A stretch of DNA of 36,337 bases from Thermoplasmata archaeon (GTDB lineage: Archaea > Thermoplasmatota > Thermoplasmata > Thermoplasmatales > Thermoplasmataceae). The position numbers and the translations under genes were made by a program. Where the stretch lies: the NCBI GenBank assembly GCA_021802055.1, contig JAKAAY010000016.1, positions 1 through 36,337 on the forward strand. Reading direction: 5' to 3'. This document shows, piece by piece, positions 1,852 through 29,149 of this stretch; position 1 is the stretch's first letter; each line of letters opens with the position of its first letter. Below the pieces are notes generated by a model that was given only the letters and a program-made list of their open reading frames with translations, did not search any database and had not been told where the DNA came from.

Positions 1852-2242
1852 TGTTTCCAGAATCAGCCTCCAGGTGAGATACCGGGACCTTGACAGCCTG
1901 GGGCATGTTAACAATGCAGTATATCTCTCGTATTTTGAAATGGGCAGGATAAATTTCTTCATGGACATGGAGCTGGACTTCAACCCGGAATCCGTGAATT
2001 TCGTGCTTGCCCACGTATCCATAGATTTCAGGAAATCAATAACGCTTTTCGACAGTATCATGCAGGAAACCTGGATCCAGAAGACAGGCAGGACAAGCGT
2101 GACATTCAGGCACAGGATAGTATCGTCAGCAGACGGCAGCGAGTTCTGCACTGGAGAGACCATAGCAGTCTGGCTTGGACCTGATGGAAAGAAAGCGGAA
2201 TTGCCGGAGGTATTCCGGAAACTTTCTCACGAGGTTTCCTGA
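1835..2242 (+). CDS. 4-hydroxybenzoyl-CoA thioesterase-like hotdog protein
   Basis: A single hotdog-fold acyl-CoA thioesterase, 135 residues. The signature VRYRDLDSLGHVNNAVYL at residues 14-31 contains the catalytic-site Asp and the HVNNA turn typical of the 4HBT/YbgC group, followed by YFEMGRINFF. It presumably hydrolyses an acyl-CoA; the acyl chain is unknown. Start is the TTG at 1835, overlapping the hydrolase end. The nearby ATG at 1851 is in another frame, and a later start would cut into the first strand. Its 3' end overlaps the convergent endA gene by 16 bases. Confidence 0.85.
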   Translation: MKASGNVSRISLQVRYRDLDSLGHVNNAVYLSYFEMGRINFFMDMELDFNPESVNFVLAHVSIDFRKSITLFDSIMQETWIQKTGRTSVTFRHRIVSSADGSEFCTGETIAVWLGPDGKKAELPEVFRKLSHEVS

Positions 2243-3186
2243 GATACTTTTCCGGAAAAGTCCCTGACCCTTTCAACCTGTATGTAACGCAGGGCATTTT
2301 CCACAATGCCTGCAAATACCATCTTTTTCCTCACTGCATGGGCAACCCTGACCGCCCTGCTTATCTTGAACCATTCATCGGTGTCGAACACGGAAAGGAG
2401 CATCTCCGCGTGGTCTTCTATGCTCCTGGAATAGACGCGGAAGTTGGAACCGTACTTGAATCCGGTCTTAACAATGCACCCCCTGGAAACCATGTCAGCG
2501 AAAACCCTGTCCAAAAGCTCTTCCTTTGCCATACTGCCTGCACCCATGCCCCGGCTGCCCGGAACCAGCGCAGCCAGTGCCCTCATCTCTGTGGCATTGA
2601 GCACCCTGGCGTCGCCCATCTCTTCTCCGAACCAGTCAGGCAGTGAGGTTGAGGGCACAACATAACGGTCTCCCGCCTTCCTGCATTCCAATGATTCGGG
2701 CCAGCTGTCCTTTCTCTGCCCTGAAGGTTCTGTCCTCGTAACCTCGTATATGGTCATGTCATCCTGCTCATCCACCACGGCATAGATGCATGGTGCCCTG
2801 CGGTATATCTCCACAAAACTGTCGGCCATCGACTCCATGCGCACCATAAGGGGTCCTCTGCTGGTATTCTCCCCTCTTCGCCTGAAGTACATGGCGTCCG
2901 GTTCCACGTTGACCTGGAAACCTGAAGCCTTGAGATGCTCGAATACCCTGTACCTGTAAAGAAATTCATCCTCCCCAAGAAGCACCGGGAGCAGGGCATA
3001 CATCCCGTCAAGATCTCTGTTCTCCGGGCCTATTTTCTGCCTGCTGAAGAGGTAAAGTGCCTCAAGCGGCTTCAGGATGAGCTTATCACCGGAGACTTTT
3101 CCCACCGAATACTTTCCATGGAGATGGGTGGGCGATTTGCCGCCCTTAATGTTGAATGCAATCCCGCCGCAGACTGCCTTATGCAT
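2227..3186 (-). CDS. endA: tRNA-splicing endonuclease (tandem-repeat, homodimer type)
   Basis: Cleaves pre-tRNA introns at the bulge-helix-bulge. At about 319 residues it is the duplicated, homodimeric kind known from Thermoplasma and Archaeoglobus. The N-terminal repeat is degenerate (YRYRVFEHLKASGF). The C-terminal repeat is catalytic: Tyr252 in FRVY, His259 in IEDHAEM and a lysine at 287/288 in AVRKKMVFA, all in the classical order and followed by FAGI. The ATG at 3186 is chosen over one at 3216 because an AAGGA-like site precedes it and it reduces the overlap with the upstream GTPase gene to 8 bases. The two genes are therefore translationally coupled. Confidence 0.92.
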   Translation of the reverse strand: MHKAVCGGIAFNIKGGKSPTHLHGKYSVGKVSGDKLILKPLEALYLFSRQKIGPENRDLDGMYALLPVLLGEDEFLYRYRVFEHLKASGFQVNVEPDAMYFRRRGENTSRGPLMVRMESMADSFVEIYRRAPCIYAVVDEQDDMTIYEVTRTEPSGQRKDSWPESLECRKAGDRYVVPSTSLPDWFGEEMGDARVLNATEMRALAALVPGSRGMGAGSMAKEELLDRVFADMVSRGCIVKTGFKYGSNFRVYSRSIEDHAEMLLSVFDTDEWFKISRAVRVAHAVRKKMVFAGIVENALRYIQVERVRDFSGKVSQETS

Positions 3187-3709
3187 TTTTTTCCTTCTTG
3201 CCGAGGAATCTTTCAATGAGGTTGGATGTAAGTGAATTGATCAGATCACCGACGCCTTCTCCGGTTCTTGAACTCGCGAGAAAATATTTTATGCCATCTC
3301 TCCCGCTGATGCGATCCAGTTCATCGGTCCAGTATGCTGCTTCGTATTTTCTGTCCAGTTTGGTGGCGACCAGATAGGTGAGAGATTTGGAGTTGAATTT
3401 TCTCAGGTTCTTGAAGGTGGATTCAGCTGACGTGAGGCTTGCAAAATCCGTGAGGTCACACACCACGATGATCGCGTTTGAGCCCATGATGAGCTTTTCA
3501 TTGTTCTTGCCTTCATCGAGCTCAAGAAAGAGGAGGTCCGCTATCACCTTCTTGCCGTCTCTCAGGAAGCTGAGGGTCTTTTTCTGGATGCTGCGGGGCT
3601 GGGCCGCACTTCCATCGGAGTCATAAATCATCCTGGATATGATTGAGCTTTTTCCCGCTCCCAGTGCACCTAGAACGCTTATCTTCCAGGTGACCCTTGT
3701 AACTTCCAT
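3179..3709 (-). CDS. small Ras/Rab-like GTPase
   Basis: A 176-residue P-loop GTPase. The G1 loop is GALGAGKSS at 14-22, a G3-like ELDEG follows strand 3, G4 is TKLD in VATKLDRKY, and a G5-like LASSRTGEG occurs near residue 146. G4 has Thr in place of the usual Asn, as in several archaeal and Rab/Arf-like GTPases. No membrane anchor is visible. It probably heads a two-gene operon with endA, which begins inside its last codons. A TATA-like TTTTATAATT lies upstream around 3728-3737. Its physiological partner is unknown; family membership is clear, role is not. Confidence 0.8.
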   Translation of the reverse strand: MEVTRVTWKISVLGALGAGKSSIISRMIYDSDGSAAQPRSIQKKTLSFLRDGKKVIADLLFLELDEGKNNEKLIMGSNAIIVVCDLTDFASLTSAESTFKNLRKFNSKSLTYLVATKLDRKYEAAYWTDELDRISGRDGIKYFLASSRTGEGVGDLINSLTSNLIERFLGKKEKNA

Positions 3710-24588: not shown

Positions 24589-25338
24589 TCAAATGTTTTT
24601 CTGTCTCCAGTCAGACACACGCGTCGCAAAGAAAATCATGCCGAGTGTTTCCAGGGCATAGATGGCCATGGGAATGACAACTGATACAAGGCTCCCTGCA
24701 ACTGCTCCCTTGATAATGAGTGCTGCAAATGTTGTTGGGACCAGGTAGGCGATATACCTCACCGGGACGGGAATAGAGTAAATGGAGTAGTATATGGGCG
24801 GAAGCACTGCAAACACGATCCCGAATATCACGGATATGGGCCATATCTCCCTCATCTCCCGGACTCTCCTGGATATGAGGTAAGAAAGGAGTGAGAAGAA
24901 TAACCATGTGAGAAAGGCTGAGGCCAGTATCAGAAGGACGGCAATGATCCCCGCTGAGGCAAGGTAGATAATCGCTGCAAGGAAGAAAACGGCACCGGGA
25001 AGAATGAATATGATATCGCCCGACGCCATTCCCAGCACATAGGTAAGCGGGCTGATTCCGGTTGTGGAAACCATCTGCTGGAACTTCAGGTCGATCTTTC
25101 CAAAGAGAAGATCGCTCTGCAGCATGGTTGCAGCGTTGATCATGGTGAATATGAGTCCCCCGATGGATCCTGCAAGCAGCTGCGTCCCATTGCTGAATAT
25201 ATCAACAAAGAACAGGAAGGAGAACGGGGTAGACAGTATGGCAACCAGGGCCAGCGGCCTGCGGTATATTGGAATCATGCCATTGAGCTTCATCAGGCTT
25301 TCCAGCGCCCTTAGATTCTTCAGGCTGTTACTCTTCAT
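24589..25338 (-). CDS. ABC-2 type transporter permease
   Basis: A 249-residue integral membrane protein with about six transmembrane helices, e.g. LALVAILSTPFSFLFFVDIF, FILPGAVFFLAAIIYLA, IIAVLLILASAFLTWLFFSL and PISVIFGIVFAVLPPIYYSI. The arrangement is that of ABC-2 exporters of the drug/polysaccharide or Nod-J-like group. The ATG at 25338 overlaps the end of the ATPase gene by 11 bases; a longer frame to 25383 would lie further inside that gene. Substrate is unknown; together with the ATPase it forms an exporter. Confidence 0.85.
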   Translation of the reverse strand: MKSNSLKNLRALESLMKLNGMIPIYRRPLALVAILSTPFSFLFFVDIFSNGTQLLAGSIGGLIFTMINAATMLQSDLLFGKIDLKFQQMVSTTGISPLTYVLGMASGDIIFILPGAVFFLAAIIYLASAGIIAVLLILASAFLTWLFFSLLSYLISRRVREMREIWPISVIFGIVFAVLPPIYYSIYSIPVPVRYIAYLVPTTFAALIIKGAVAGSLVSVVIPMAIYALETLGMIFFATRVSDWRQKNI

Positions 25339-26266
25339 CGATGCTCTCACCCACAAGCGAAATGAATACGTCCTCAAGACCAACGGGGGATATTTCCACG
25401 TGGGTCTTCAGCAGCCCCGCCGAGAGGATAATCTCCTCAACCATAGAGTCGTCTGTGTAAAGGATTTCAAATTCGTTGTCCTGGAACAGTTTTCCGTGTA
25501 TTTTCTGTGACTCGCCCAGAAACCCTTTCGCGGTCCTGATTCTTGTGTTGTACTCCACCATCCTGCGCAACTCCTCCATTTTGCCCTGTGCAATCAGCTT
25601 TCCTCTGTTCACAACGGCGATCTCATCGCTGAGCGCGGCCGCCTCGTCCAGGTAATGGGTTGTGAGGATGATGGTCCTGTTCTTTCTCTTGTATTCGTTT
25701 ATGGCGTTCCAGACATTTTTTCTTGTGATTATGTCGAGTCCTATCGTTGGCTCATCCAGGAAGTAAATTTGGGCCTCTGCAGAAAGTGCCATGCCCACTA
25801 TGATAAGCTGCCTCTGGCCTCCGGAGAGATTGACTGCCTCGGTATCCAAGGTTGGTTCCAGATGGAGCATTTCAGAGATGTACTGGGTCCTATCCCTTGC
25901 GCCTTCCCTGGTGTTGCCCAGGATCCTCTGGTAATGATAGATGTGCTCCCTTGGAGTCAGGTGTCCCCATGGCCTGCACTCCTGCGGGACCAGCGAGATC
26001 ATGTTCCTGACCTCACCCGGGGATTCGATCACATTATGCCCAAATATCTCAAGCTTTCCCGAGTCAGAGAGAAGCTGACCTGTGGCGATCTTGACAAACG
26101 TGGTCTTTCCCGAGCCGTTTCTCCCAAGCAGCGAGAGGATCATCGGATGGCTGCAGTTCAGGTTCAGTCCGTCAAGCGCAATGGTCTCTTTGCCTTTTAC
26201 GCTGTACACCTTTCTGAGCTCTTCCACAAGGAGCGGAAACGTCACGGAGGATGCATTGGGATCCAA
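25328..26266 (-). CDS. ABC transporter ATP-binding protein (ABC-2 exporter)
   Basis: A 312-residue ATPase. Walker A is GRNGSGKT (48-55), the Q-loop is LVPQE, the signature is LSGGQ (147-151), Walker B is IYFLDEP (167-173) and the switch histidine is in LTTHYLDEAA. The C-terminal 90 residues form the extra domain of DrrA/CcmA-like exporters. The usual aromatic A-loop region is YSVKGKETIAL. It is first in a two-gene operon with the overlapping permease. Confidence 0.92.
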   Translation of the reverse strand: MDPNASSVTFPLLVEELRKVYSVKGKETIALDGLNLNCSHPMILSLLGRNGSGKTTFVKIATGQLLSDSGKLEIFGHNVIESPGEVRNMISLVPQECRPWGHLTPREHIYHYQRILGNTREGARDRTQYISEMLHLEPTLDTEAVNLSGGQRQLIIVGMALSAEAQIYFLDEPTIGLDIITRKNVWNAINEYKRKNRTIILTTHYLDEAAALSDEIAVVNRGKLIAQGKMEELRRMVEYNTRIRTAKGFLGESQKIHGKLFQDNEFEILYTDDSMVEEIILSAGLLKTHVEISPVGLEDVFISLVGESIDEE

Positions 26267-26336: not shown

Positions 26337-27815
26337 TCAGCCATATATCCTGTCCCGGTTGTTGTAGGCATAGAAGTACTCCTCCGCCTTCTGGGAAATG
26401 GTGTTTTCCGAAGATACGGCTGCGCTCAGATTTCCATACGTTTTCTTAATTTTCTCCTCGACTGGAAGGTATATTTTGAGAGCCTCCTTGATGTGGCTCG
26501 TTTCTACGAGCTTGCTGCTATCGAAAACTGCTATGTCTCCGGCAGCCCTTATCAGACCGCCCATCTCCCTGAGTCGCAGTGTAAGTTCCTTCTCCTTGTG
26601 GTCTATCACGAAGGCCCTCCTCCTGCCCTCCTCTATGACCATGTTGGCAGCGTCTATGCTCATGTGTGGGACCTTCCCGTCGACGTTGATCTCCTGTGCT
26701 ATAAACTGAAGATATTTTTCACGGTTTTCTGGGGTATCTTTGATGGAGACGTTCATGAGGGCCTCGTATCCGTTTCCCACTATCCTGGATCTCAGGGGGC
26801 TGAGAATATATTGCAGATCCTGAATGTTGCATGCCGCAACCAGTACAAAATCGCATGGGACCCTGTCGACTCTCACGCTTGCGCCGGCACTTTGCGGGTT
26901 CCTTCCCATGATGGGGAAGGTTTTCTCCTGCATGGCCGTGAGTATTGATCGCTGAAGATTACCAAGGTGTGTAATCTCGTCGATGAACAGCACACCTTCA
27001 TGAGCCTCATGAACTGCACCCGCGACCACTCTCTCATAGGGGAGGGTGCCAAGCTGGGGATGCCCTCCATAGGGGTCATGCCTGACGTCTCCGAGGAGTT
27101 CTGTTTCACTGGCCCCCGTCGCAAGCACAAATCCACTTCTCTCGATAGGTACAATGACCTTGCTGGGGCTTTTCTTTTCGGCTTTTCTTCTCTTCTCAAG
27201 TGATCTCTGGTCCAGGACCCTGATCTGGTCACCGGCCCTTTCATAGATCATTATCTCTTCTCTCTCCCCGATCTTTACTGTGGATGTGACCCGGTCCTGA
27301 TTGTTCTGTACCCCAAAGGCTGCGCCTATAACGTTGAACACGTCTCCGAATGGGCCGGGAGCCACGGTTTGTACCTTGGGAGAACCGCAGTGAGGACAGG
27401 CCATCTCCGTGAATTCAGAATAGAAACCACATTTCTGGCACTTGTATCCCAGACGTTCAGCAACGCTTGGCGGGACCGTCCGCGGATCCACAAGCTGCCC
27501 CTCGTAAAGATAATCTTCACTCTTCTCCGCAGCAATCTCCTCCGAACTCTTAACCTCAAAGAACGGACGCTCAGGGTACTGGGGATTGTGAACGACACGT
27601 ATATCCTGTTTTGGCCTGGGAATATAGAATGACATGGCCTGGGCAATCATGGATTTCCCAACACCCGGAGGTCCAACAAGGAGCAGGTGCCTGCGCTGGG
27701 ATGCGGCTATTCTTGCCAGTTTTACTGCATCATCCTGTCCGATAACCCTCTCCAGAGGCGTTGGGGGTATTTCCACCTGACTTGTATCTTCTATTTCCTT
27801 AACAGTGTCTTTCAC
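26337..27815 (-). CDS. LonB-like AAA+ ATPase with zinc ribbon and no protease domain
   Basis: 492 residues. The ATPase closely follows archaeal LonB: Walker A GPPGVGKS (48-55), LLGDVRHDPYGG, GVLFIDEITHLGNLQRSIL (Walker B 275-280), LTAMQEKTFPIMG, sensor-1 Asn330, LSPLRSRI arginine finger, LTLRLREMGGLIRAAGDIAV sensor-2. Two LonB features are absent: the transmembrane pair inserted between Walker A and B, replaced by a soluble insert with a zinc ribbon (C126, C129, C140, C143), and the C-terminal Ser-Lys S16 peptidase, replaced by a short helical tail. It therefore looks like a soluble remodelling ATPase, not a protease. The GTG start overlaps the dnaG stop (GTGA), implying co-translation with DnaG. 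Confidence 0.85.
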   Translation of the reverse strand: MKDTVKEIEDTSQVEIPPTPLERVIGQDDAVKLARIAASQRRHLLLVGPPGVGKSMIAQAMSFYIPRPKQDIRVVHNPQYPERPFFEVKSSEEIAAEKSEDYLYEGQLVDPRTVPPSVAERLGYKCQKCGFYSEFTEMACPHCGSPKVQTVAPGPFGDVFNVIGAAFGVQNNQDRVTSTVKIGEREEIMIYERAGDQIRVLDQRSLEKRRKAEKKSPSKVIVPIERSGFVLATGASETELLGDVRHDPYGGHPQLGTLPYERVVAGAVHEAHEGVLFIDEITHLGNLQRSILTAMQEKTFPIMGRNPQSAGASVRVDRVPCDFVLVAACNIQDLQYILSPLRSRIVGNGYEALMNVSIKDTPENREKYLQFIAQEINVDGKVPHMSIDAANMVIEEGRRRAFVIDHKEKELTLRLREMGGLIRAAGDIAVFDSSKLVETSHIKEALKIYLPVEEKIKKTYGNLSAAVSSENTISQKAEEYFYAYNNRDRIYG

Positions 27816-29149
27816 TGGTGATGATCCCAGGTTACCACCTTTAGCTCTGCCGGCTTCTTGGTGATGTTTCCCCTTCTTACACCATAAATGTTCTTTATGC
27901 CGGCGTTGTAGGCTATGTCTATGAGCCTCTGAGAAACAACTCCACCGGAAATCAGCGTGAATCCTGAAGAGACTGTGCTGAGCTTTTCCACGAGTTCAGC
28001 CACTGGAAATGTCGCAAGTACTTCGCCGGTGGACGAGTAAATCTCGCTGGACTTCTCCTTCTGCAGTTTAACGGCCCTCTGCTCGACAAATTTGGGATTG
28101 TTTATGTCCTGCCCGGAGGTCTCCTTTGTTTCTGGTGGTTTCTCCACCAGCTTGACTTCCTGCTTTGACTCCTGGGGCATGGGTTTTGTCGGGGCGGATA
28201 ACTCAACCTCCCTGATTGTTTCCTCGGTAAACTCGGAAACGTCTTTGACCTGTTTCTTTACAAATCCAGCACTCTTTTCAGCAAGATTTCTTTCGTTGAG
28301 TTCCTTGAGTTCCTCTGCCATGCCTTTCATGGAGAGATACTGGCTTATGGGGGTTTTGTAGCGCAGAGCCTTGACGATCTGCTTATAGGTGAGTTCCTCG
28401 ACCTCTGTCCCGGGGGGAGCCCTTGCAACAAAGTCTATCTCAGCGACCTGAAGCATCTCCTTTAGAATCAGGTCACCTCCGCGGTCCCCGTCAAGGAAAA
28501 CCGTGACTGTTCTCTCCCTTGAGAGATTCTGAACCGTCTTTGGAATGTCTGTGCCCTGTACTGCTATGGTGTTCTTTATGCCGTACTTGAGAAGGTTGAG
28601 CACATCGCTCCTGCCCTCCACCACTATGATTGAGTCTGAATCCTTGATTGCAGGGCCGGCAGGTAGCTTTTCCTCTCCGTATGAGACTATCTCCCCCTTC
28701 TCCACCTGTTCTCTGACTGACTGGACGATGCTCTCGGAGACGTTTTTGCCCCCTTCCATCATCCTCTTGTAAATCTGTTCAGCCCGTTCCGTAATCTTGC
28801 TTCTCTTCTGGACCCGCACATCCTCAACGGATTCAATCTCGATTTTGGCCTTGCACGGTCCAATCCTATCAATGGTCTCGAGAGATGCAGCCAGAATTGA
28901 AGTTTCCACCTGGTCAAGCCCTGAGGGTATCAGGACTTTTCCGTCAGTACGCCCCTTCTTGCTGTCTATCTCTACCTCTATTCTGCCTATTTTTCCGCCT
29001 TTCTGAAGATCCCTCAGATCCAGCTCTTCGCCCAGAAGCCCTTCCGTCTGCCCAAAAATGGCACCGACTACGTCGGGTTTCTCAACCACACCGTCTGTGA
29101 AGATCTTTGCTTTTATCAAGTACTTTGTTAAATTTGGATCTACATTCAT
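27812..29149 (-). CDS. dnaG: archaeal DnaG primase-like protein
   Basis: Archaeal DnaG, 445 residues: a toprim protein with RNA-primer activity in some archaea that also associates with the exosome. The N-terminal archaeal DnaG region is clear (YLIKAKIFTDGVVEKPDVVGAIFGQTEGLLG). The toprim domain spans about 172-250 with the catalytic Glu in IVVEGRSDVL and the acidic pair in FLDGDRGGDL. A Glu/Lys/Pro-rich linker at about 310-370 precedes the C-terminal domain. TATTAT (plus 29172-29177) is 25 bases before the ATG, so the message is probably leaderless. The LonB-like gene begins within its stop codon. Confidence 0.95.
   Translation of the reverse strand: MNVDPNLTKYLIKAKIFTDGVVEKPDVVGAIFGQTEGLLGEELDLRDLQKGGKIGRIEVEIDSKKGRTDGKVLIPSGLDQVETSILAASLETIDRIGPCKAKIEIESVEDVRVQKRSKITERAEQIYKRMMEGGKNVSESIVQSVREQVEKGEIVSYGEEKLPAGPAIKDSDSIIVVEGRSDVLNLLKYGIKNTIAVQGTDIPKTVQNLSRERTVTVFLDGDRGGDLILKEMLQVAEIDFVARAPPGTEVEELTYKQIVKALRYKTPISQYLSMKGMAEELKELNERNLAEKSAGFVKKQVKDVSEFTEETIREVELSAPTKPMPQESKQEVKLVEKPPETKETSGQDINNPKFVEQRAVKLQKEKSSEIYSSTGEVLATFPVAELVEKLSTVSSGFTLISGGVVSQRLIDIAYNAGIKNIYGVRRGNITKKPAELKVVTWDHHQ

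Follow-up and report, generated by a model that had tools for sequence, protein, structure and literature searches.

A LonB-derived, protease-less AAA+ ATPase with a predicted zinc ribbon, linked to dnaG in three archaeal phyla

The window analysed here, i.e. the whole stretch of 36,337 nucleotides of a contig from a Thermoplasmata archaeon, carries two overlapping genes on its minus strand. The upstream one (27812..29149) encodes an archaeal DnaG of 445 residues, assigned by the NCBIfam model of archaeal DnaG at 519.7 bits, i.e. above the curated cut-off of 300 bits, with the TOPRIM domain present at residues 173-234 (28448..28633; Pfam Toprim_4, 43.3 bits). The downstream one (26337..27815) encodes, from a GTG start, an AAA+ ATPase of 492 residues that derives from the archaeal protease LonB—judged from LonB profile and structure matches and from the alignment—and has no S16 peptidase domain; the family of such LonB-derived, protease-less AAA+ proteins is designated throughout this article by the working name ribbon-AAA. 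The junction reads ...CATCACCAGTGAAAGAC on the minus strand, the GTG start lying within the dnaG stop, and the 4-nt GTGA overlap (27812..27815), which had already been described in an earlier note on this DNA, can be read directly from the window sequence. About 70 bp past the ribbon-AAA gene, on the same strand, there are genes for an ABC transporter ATPase and permease (24589-26266), an adjacency not kept in relatives; far from dnaG, an apparent tRNA-splicing endonuclease gene was recognized by eye at 2227-3216 (minus strand).

Concerning the ATPase core, all the motifs of LonB are kept in the ribbon-AAA of the window and throughout the family. These are, all on the minus strand, the Walker A motif GPPGVGKS (residues 48-55; 27651..27674), conserved in both the ribbon-AAA family and LonB, the Walker B motif LFIDE (residues 276-280; 26976..26990) with invariant D279 and E280, and, each at least 98% conserved, sensor 1 (N330; 26826..26828), the LRSR motif with the arginine finger (R342-R344; 26784..26792) and sensor 2 (R416; 26568..26570). 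Since they are intact across the family, the ribbon-AAA should hydrolyse ATP. The LonB model TIGR00764 matches the protein at 340.1 bits, far over noise but under the cut-off of 516.6 bits for true LonB, and it does so in two blocks with the middle unmatched. The closest solved structures, those of LonB from Thermococcus onnurineus (3k1j and 4zpx), are likewise aligned over residues 7-85 and 226-460. The motifs, the profile match and this alignment together bear out the earlier reading of a LonB-like ATPase from Walker A to sensor 2. In a model of the full protein the AAA+ core is of high confidence and a fold search returns LonB first; it should be noted, however, that the alignment rows were those of LonB only, so that the model leans towards LonB and its insert is unreliable.

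The likeness to archaeal LonB thus extends over the AAA+ module from the N-terminus to sensor 2, with ~50% identity over residues 225-457, and includes an insert at the same place, whereas signature changes, such as S236, E239, Y249-G250 and N306-P307, set the ribbon-AAA apart, as do the replacement of the membrane helices, the lost protease, the linkage to dnaG and the separate clade, all described below. Pfam Mg_chelatase and AAA_5 also match the P-loop region and recall YifB/ComM and the Mg-chelatase ChlI, but that match is much weaker than the one to LonB, and the searches returned no such C4 insert among those proteins. LonC (MtaLonC) and other Lon-like proteins share the Lon-type AAA+ fold with one of its two functions altered; the alteration is, however, the opposite one, LonC retaining the protease without ATP-powered unfolding, according to the published account (PMC3391209), while the ribbon-AAA keeps the ATPase motifs and has lost the protease.

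The insert, covering residues ~86-225 (27141..27560, minus strand), is about 140 residues long and aligns at the very site of the transmembrane insert of LonB. In LonB, the membrane helices follow Walker A and precede the second half of the ATPase domain. Comparison of hydropathy between the two families revealed no hydrophobic transmembrane segment in the ribbon-AAA insert: the median of the maximum over 19 residues is 0.63, versus 2.46 in LonB, the ranges being non-overlapping. Instead of the helices, it carries the C4 motif CxxC-x10-CxxC, formed by C126, C129, C140 and C143 (27387..27440, minus strand), and both the positions of these cysteines and their location where the membrane insert of LonB sits are as the earlier note had given them. 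In Thermoplasmatota the four cysteines do not vary in any of 71/71 rows, and across 95 rows drawn from three phyla their conservation is at least 98%. When the segment of 51 residues was modelled from its sequence alone, the mean pLDDT was 75; most of the structural matches to this model, although weak—no E-value being below 0.05—are to zinc ribbons (LapB, Trf, DUF35, Nop10 and ribosomal proteins). From cysteine conservation and this weak likeness, a zinc ribbon is predicted here, and it likely binds zinc.

As for the protease, a six-frame search of the window and of 135 orthologous loci yielded no S16 fragment, the same query having found S16 in five control LonB loci; a frameshifted or nearby separate S16 is thereby ruled out, and the domain is indeed missing, as first noticed. 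A full-length LonB is encoded on another contig of the same genome (G000:C29), scoring 880 bits with 659 residues in an open frame, covering positions 2-605 of the 608 of the model and possessing the serine motif EGDSAS with the catalytic GDSA. In place of the S16 domain, the ribbon-AAA has a tail (residues 458-492; 26340..26444, minus strand), modelled as disordered, in which an aromatic residue is conserved at the last position but one: 112 of the 116 complete orthologues, spanning three phyla, have it. In the window the C-terminus is I-Y-G (26340-26348, minus strand), i.e. a canonical HbYX motif as defined in the literature (PMC11475706). Just ahead of the aromatic residue, however, 75/116 orthologues have Gly or Ser, so that most ribbon-AAAs do not end in a canonical HbYX; the tail may be read as a candidate docking peptide.

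The family is present in nearly all of 300 sampled genomes of the class Thermoplasmata, with matches of the families f3, f4 and f10 being at LonB-level scores only. Elsewhere in the Thermoplasmatota sample, about a dozen families (among them f37, f38, f41, f42, f48, f52, f54, f56 and f61) contain full-length orthologues, and many large families have LonB only. Orthologues were further found in 19/150 genomes of Methanobacteriota (the phylum of Methanobacteriaceae archaeon 41_258) and in 44/148 of Asgard (the phylum of an Asgard MAG), but, at E ≤ 1e-68, in none of the 197 genomes of Halobacteriota (the phylum of Methanolobus vulcani). It should be pointed out that phyla other than Thermoplasmatota were reached via LonB loci as stepping stones and take their names from record titles, the sampling outside Thermoplasmatota covering the three just given. 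No relative was found on the viral contigs searched.

The linkage to dnaG, whose absence in relatives would have refuted the reading of the earlier note, is kept well beyond Thermoplasmata. In a set of 119 loci, which takes in the window itself and counts a few genomes twice, 107 have dnaG as the immediate upstream gene on the same strand, namely 72/74 from Thermoplasmatota, 19/19 from Methanobacteriota and 16/26 from Asgard; the ribbon-AAA gene is away from dnaG in the remaining 12 (10/26 Asgard and two Thermoplasmatota), and ~1 kb separates the two genes at one locus of Thermoplasmatota (L058). This adjacency in three phyla, together with the 71/71 invariance of the four cysteines, argues that the ribbon-AAA is not a chance feature. 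Most of the tested genomes with a ribbon-AAA also have dnaG, two carriers in which no dnaG match was found (G713 and G735) being genomes of undefined completeness, whereas many genomes with dnaG have no ribbon-AAA. DnaG would be the constant partner of the ribbon-AAA, and the latter appears to be an accessory that has DnaG as its target, because DnaG often occurs without the ATPase while most tested carriers of the ATPase have DnaG. In three Asgard genomes without the ribbon-AAA (G692, G702 and G710), the dnaG matches contain one or two in-frame stop codons.

Among the gene neighbourhoods of the ribbon-AAA loci, no neighbour other than dnaG is conserved across phyla. In one Asgard group, the gene for pelota is directly downstream of the ribbon-AAA at 15 loci (e.g. 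L232:5681-6766, L213 and L226-L228). In a second one (L220 and L222-L224), that for the tRNA-splicing endonuclease EndA is directly upstream, dnaG being elsewhere, and at L224 the genes for the CCA-adding enzyme (cca) and an RNA 2',3'-cyclic phosphodiesterase are also nearby. The order in Methanobacteriota is a PRK04017 toprim gene, dnaG, ribbon-AAA and xerA, and the relatives without the ATPase have dnaG directly followed by a XerA-like tyrosine recombinase, identified by eye (L231; L252, L256, L261).

The evolutionary tree based on the ATPase core shows the ribbon-AAAs as one clade (support 0.984, stem 0.55), positioned apart from all LonBs, and the LonB encoded by the genome of the window is placed within the LonBs; a recent duplication of LonB inside Thermoplasmata is thus rejected. 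The DnaG tree groups by phylum, with carriers and non-carriers of the ribbon-AAA mixed together, and lends no support to horizontal transfer of the whole operon. Because the DnaG tree follows the phyla, the linkage was probably inherited and does not represent a recently moved operon. The simplest reading of the distribution appears to be that the gene pair is old and that the ATPase was lost repeatedly, and since the Methanobacteria lacking the ATPase have xerA directly after dnaG, a clean loss from dnaG-AAA-xerA is suggested there. Lateral spread of the ribbon-AAA alone, landing each time next to dnaG, is less likely.

Whether archaeal DnaG serves in the exosome cap, as a primase or in both capacities is a matter of continuing debate. 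The protein has been described as an RNA-binding subunit of the exosome cap, the N-terminal domain being the RNA-binding one (PMC4227792). With regard to the exosome core, Rrp41 was found in 79/80 genomes at a loose cut-off and therefore cannot separate carriers from non-carriers. In G317, G325 and G336 its sole match is PNPase-like (~87-90 bits) and lies in a long frame of 756-808 residues. Rrp4 was not detected in seven genomes of Thermoplasmatota, several of them from the family f41 (G317, G325, G331, G358, G361, G336 and G364), and despite its absence dnaG and the ribbon-AAA gene are adjacent in G317, G331, G358, G361, G325 and G364. The state of G317, G325 and G336, without Rrp4 or a true Rrp41, resembles exosome loss within Thermoplasmatota. 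Since relatives without detectable Rrp4 or Rrp41 retain the pair, the exosome core as an obligatory partner was rejected. Of the earlier proposal, the soluble, putatively zinc-bearing ATPase tied to DnaG is well supported at the level of sequence, all three of the refuting conditions named there having failed: no peptidase is encoded by a frameshifted segment, relatives keep the linkage and the genome has a full-length LonB. As to the exosome, one of the targets suggested there, its core is not obligatory.

Based on the above results, it appears about evenly balanced (a probability of roughly 0.5) that the ribbon-AAA is a soluble ATP-driven remodeller of DnaG-containing RNA-protein complexes, with DnaG, encoded by the other gene of the translationally coupled pair, as the partner. 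The ancient protease-less paralogue of LonB would form a soluble ATPase ring, presumably a hexamer, in which putative zinc ribbons take the position of the membrane helices of LonB and short tails with their conserved aromatic residue take that of its protease. Such a ring would spend ATP on remodelling these complexes by pulling on DnaG, possibly through direct contact, or on a DnaG-bound protein; recognition of the substrate, or of its RNA, might fall to the ribbons and docking of a partner to the tails. A role with RNA is favoured over priming, because the Asgard neighbours pelota and EndA are RNA-processing genes; this setting rests mainly on these neighbours and on the published work on DnaG, the xerA of Methanobacteriota counting against it. 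Against the remodeller as a whole there are the many lineages where DnaG functions without the ribbon-AAA, the 12/119 unlinked loci and the two carriers in which no dnaG match was found. A further step may be proposed tentatively, namely that the ribbon-AAA is a dedicated ATP-driven DnaG machine that predates the split of Asgard and euryarchaea and loads DnaG onto RNA, unloads it or clears it away, be it at the exosome cap, on stalled ribosomes or on tRNA precursors.

Several other explanations have to be weighed against the remodeller. The ribbon-AAA could in principle be, like MCM, RuvB or ComM, a nucleic-acid motor or loader serving DnaG in replication or repair. These three ATPases act on DNA and are found among the secondary structural matches, and xerA, located downstream in Methanobacteriota, is a DNA recombinase. 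Moreover, DnaG of Sulfolobus solfataricus has been reported to possess primase activity and to bind MCM (PMC4227792), and dnaG lies close to replication genes in other archaea, as stated by Berthon et al. (PMC2643942). The far best matches in both sequence and structure are, however, to the protein unfoldase LonB, the MCM-type matches are low with TM-scores of ~0.2, and the Asgard neighbours are genes of RNA and translation, all of which makes a DNA motor unlikely. Still less probable is an unfoldase that would dock on the 20S proteasome by its C-terminal tails in place of its own protease, as PAN and Cdc48 do via HbYX. PAN and Cdc48/VAT are soluble AAA+ rings too, many ribbon-AAA tails end in Tyr-X, and the tails, aromatic at the penultimate position and in the window canonical, are located where the protease was. 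These proteasomal ATPases belong, however, to a different AAA+ family, and the hydrophobic residue of HbYX is not conserved in the ribbon-AAA; neither PAN nor the ribbon-AAA substitutes for the other, genomes with both, with either one alone and with neither all being seen, so that complementarity was rejected in favour of independent distributions, and the linkage to dnaG would be left unexplained.

That very linkage might reflect just co-regulation, the gene order being kept for expression with no joint biochemical task. The persistence of the ribbon-AAA gene at the 12 loci where linkage is lost fits such a view, but the linkage has been held over three phyla while other neighbours changed, and the two genes overlap translationally in the window, which leaves this explanation improbable. 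Finally, lacking the S16 domain of its relatives, the ribbon-AAA might be taken for a LonB that is broken or frameshifted, or for an artefact of assembly; this may be set aside with near certainty, given that well over 100 genomes share the architecture, with neither internal stop codons nor an S16 remnant, and that an intact LonB is encoded separately.

The conserved subfamily of LonB-type ATPases and the old two-gene module that it forms with dnaG are real and apparently undescribed. The claim of an undescribed system holds within the curated family models, none of which covers the ribbon-AAA, and within the open-access literature searched, where no description of it or of its link to DnaG was found; the passages on dnaG neighbours in Berthon et al. 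(PMC2643942) do not mention it. Because curated models score the ribbon-AAA only as a sub-threshold LonB, its annotation as a protease is an easy error. Early in archaeal history, a membrane protease seems to have been turned into a soluble machine, with the anchor exchanged for a predicted zinc ribbon and the protease dropped, and the Asgard representatives adjoin pelota, a protein conserved into eukaryotes. A conserved ATPase partner offers a concrete handle on the debated role of archaeal DnaG, and if the dedicated DnaG machine proves true, archaeal DnaG would have an undescribed energy-driven cycle.
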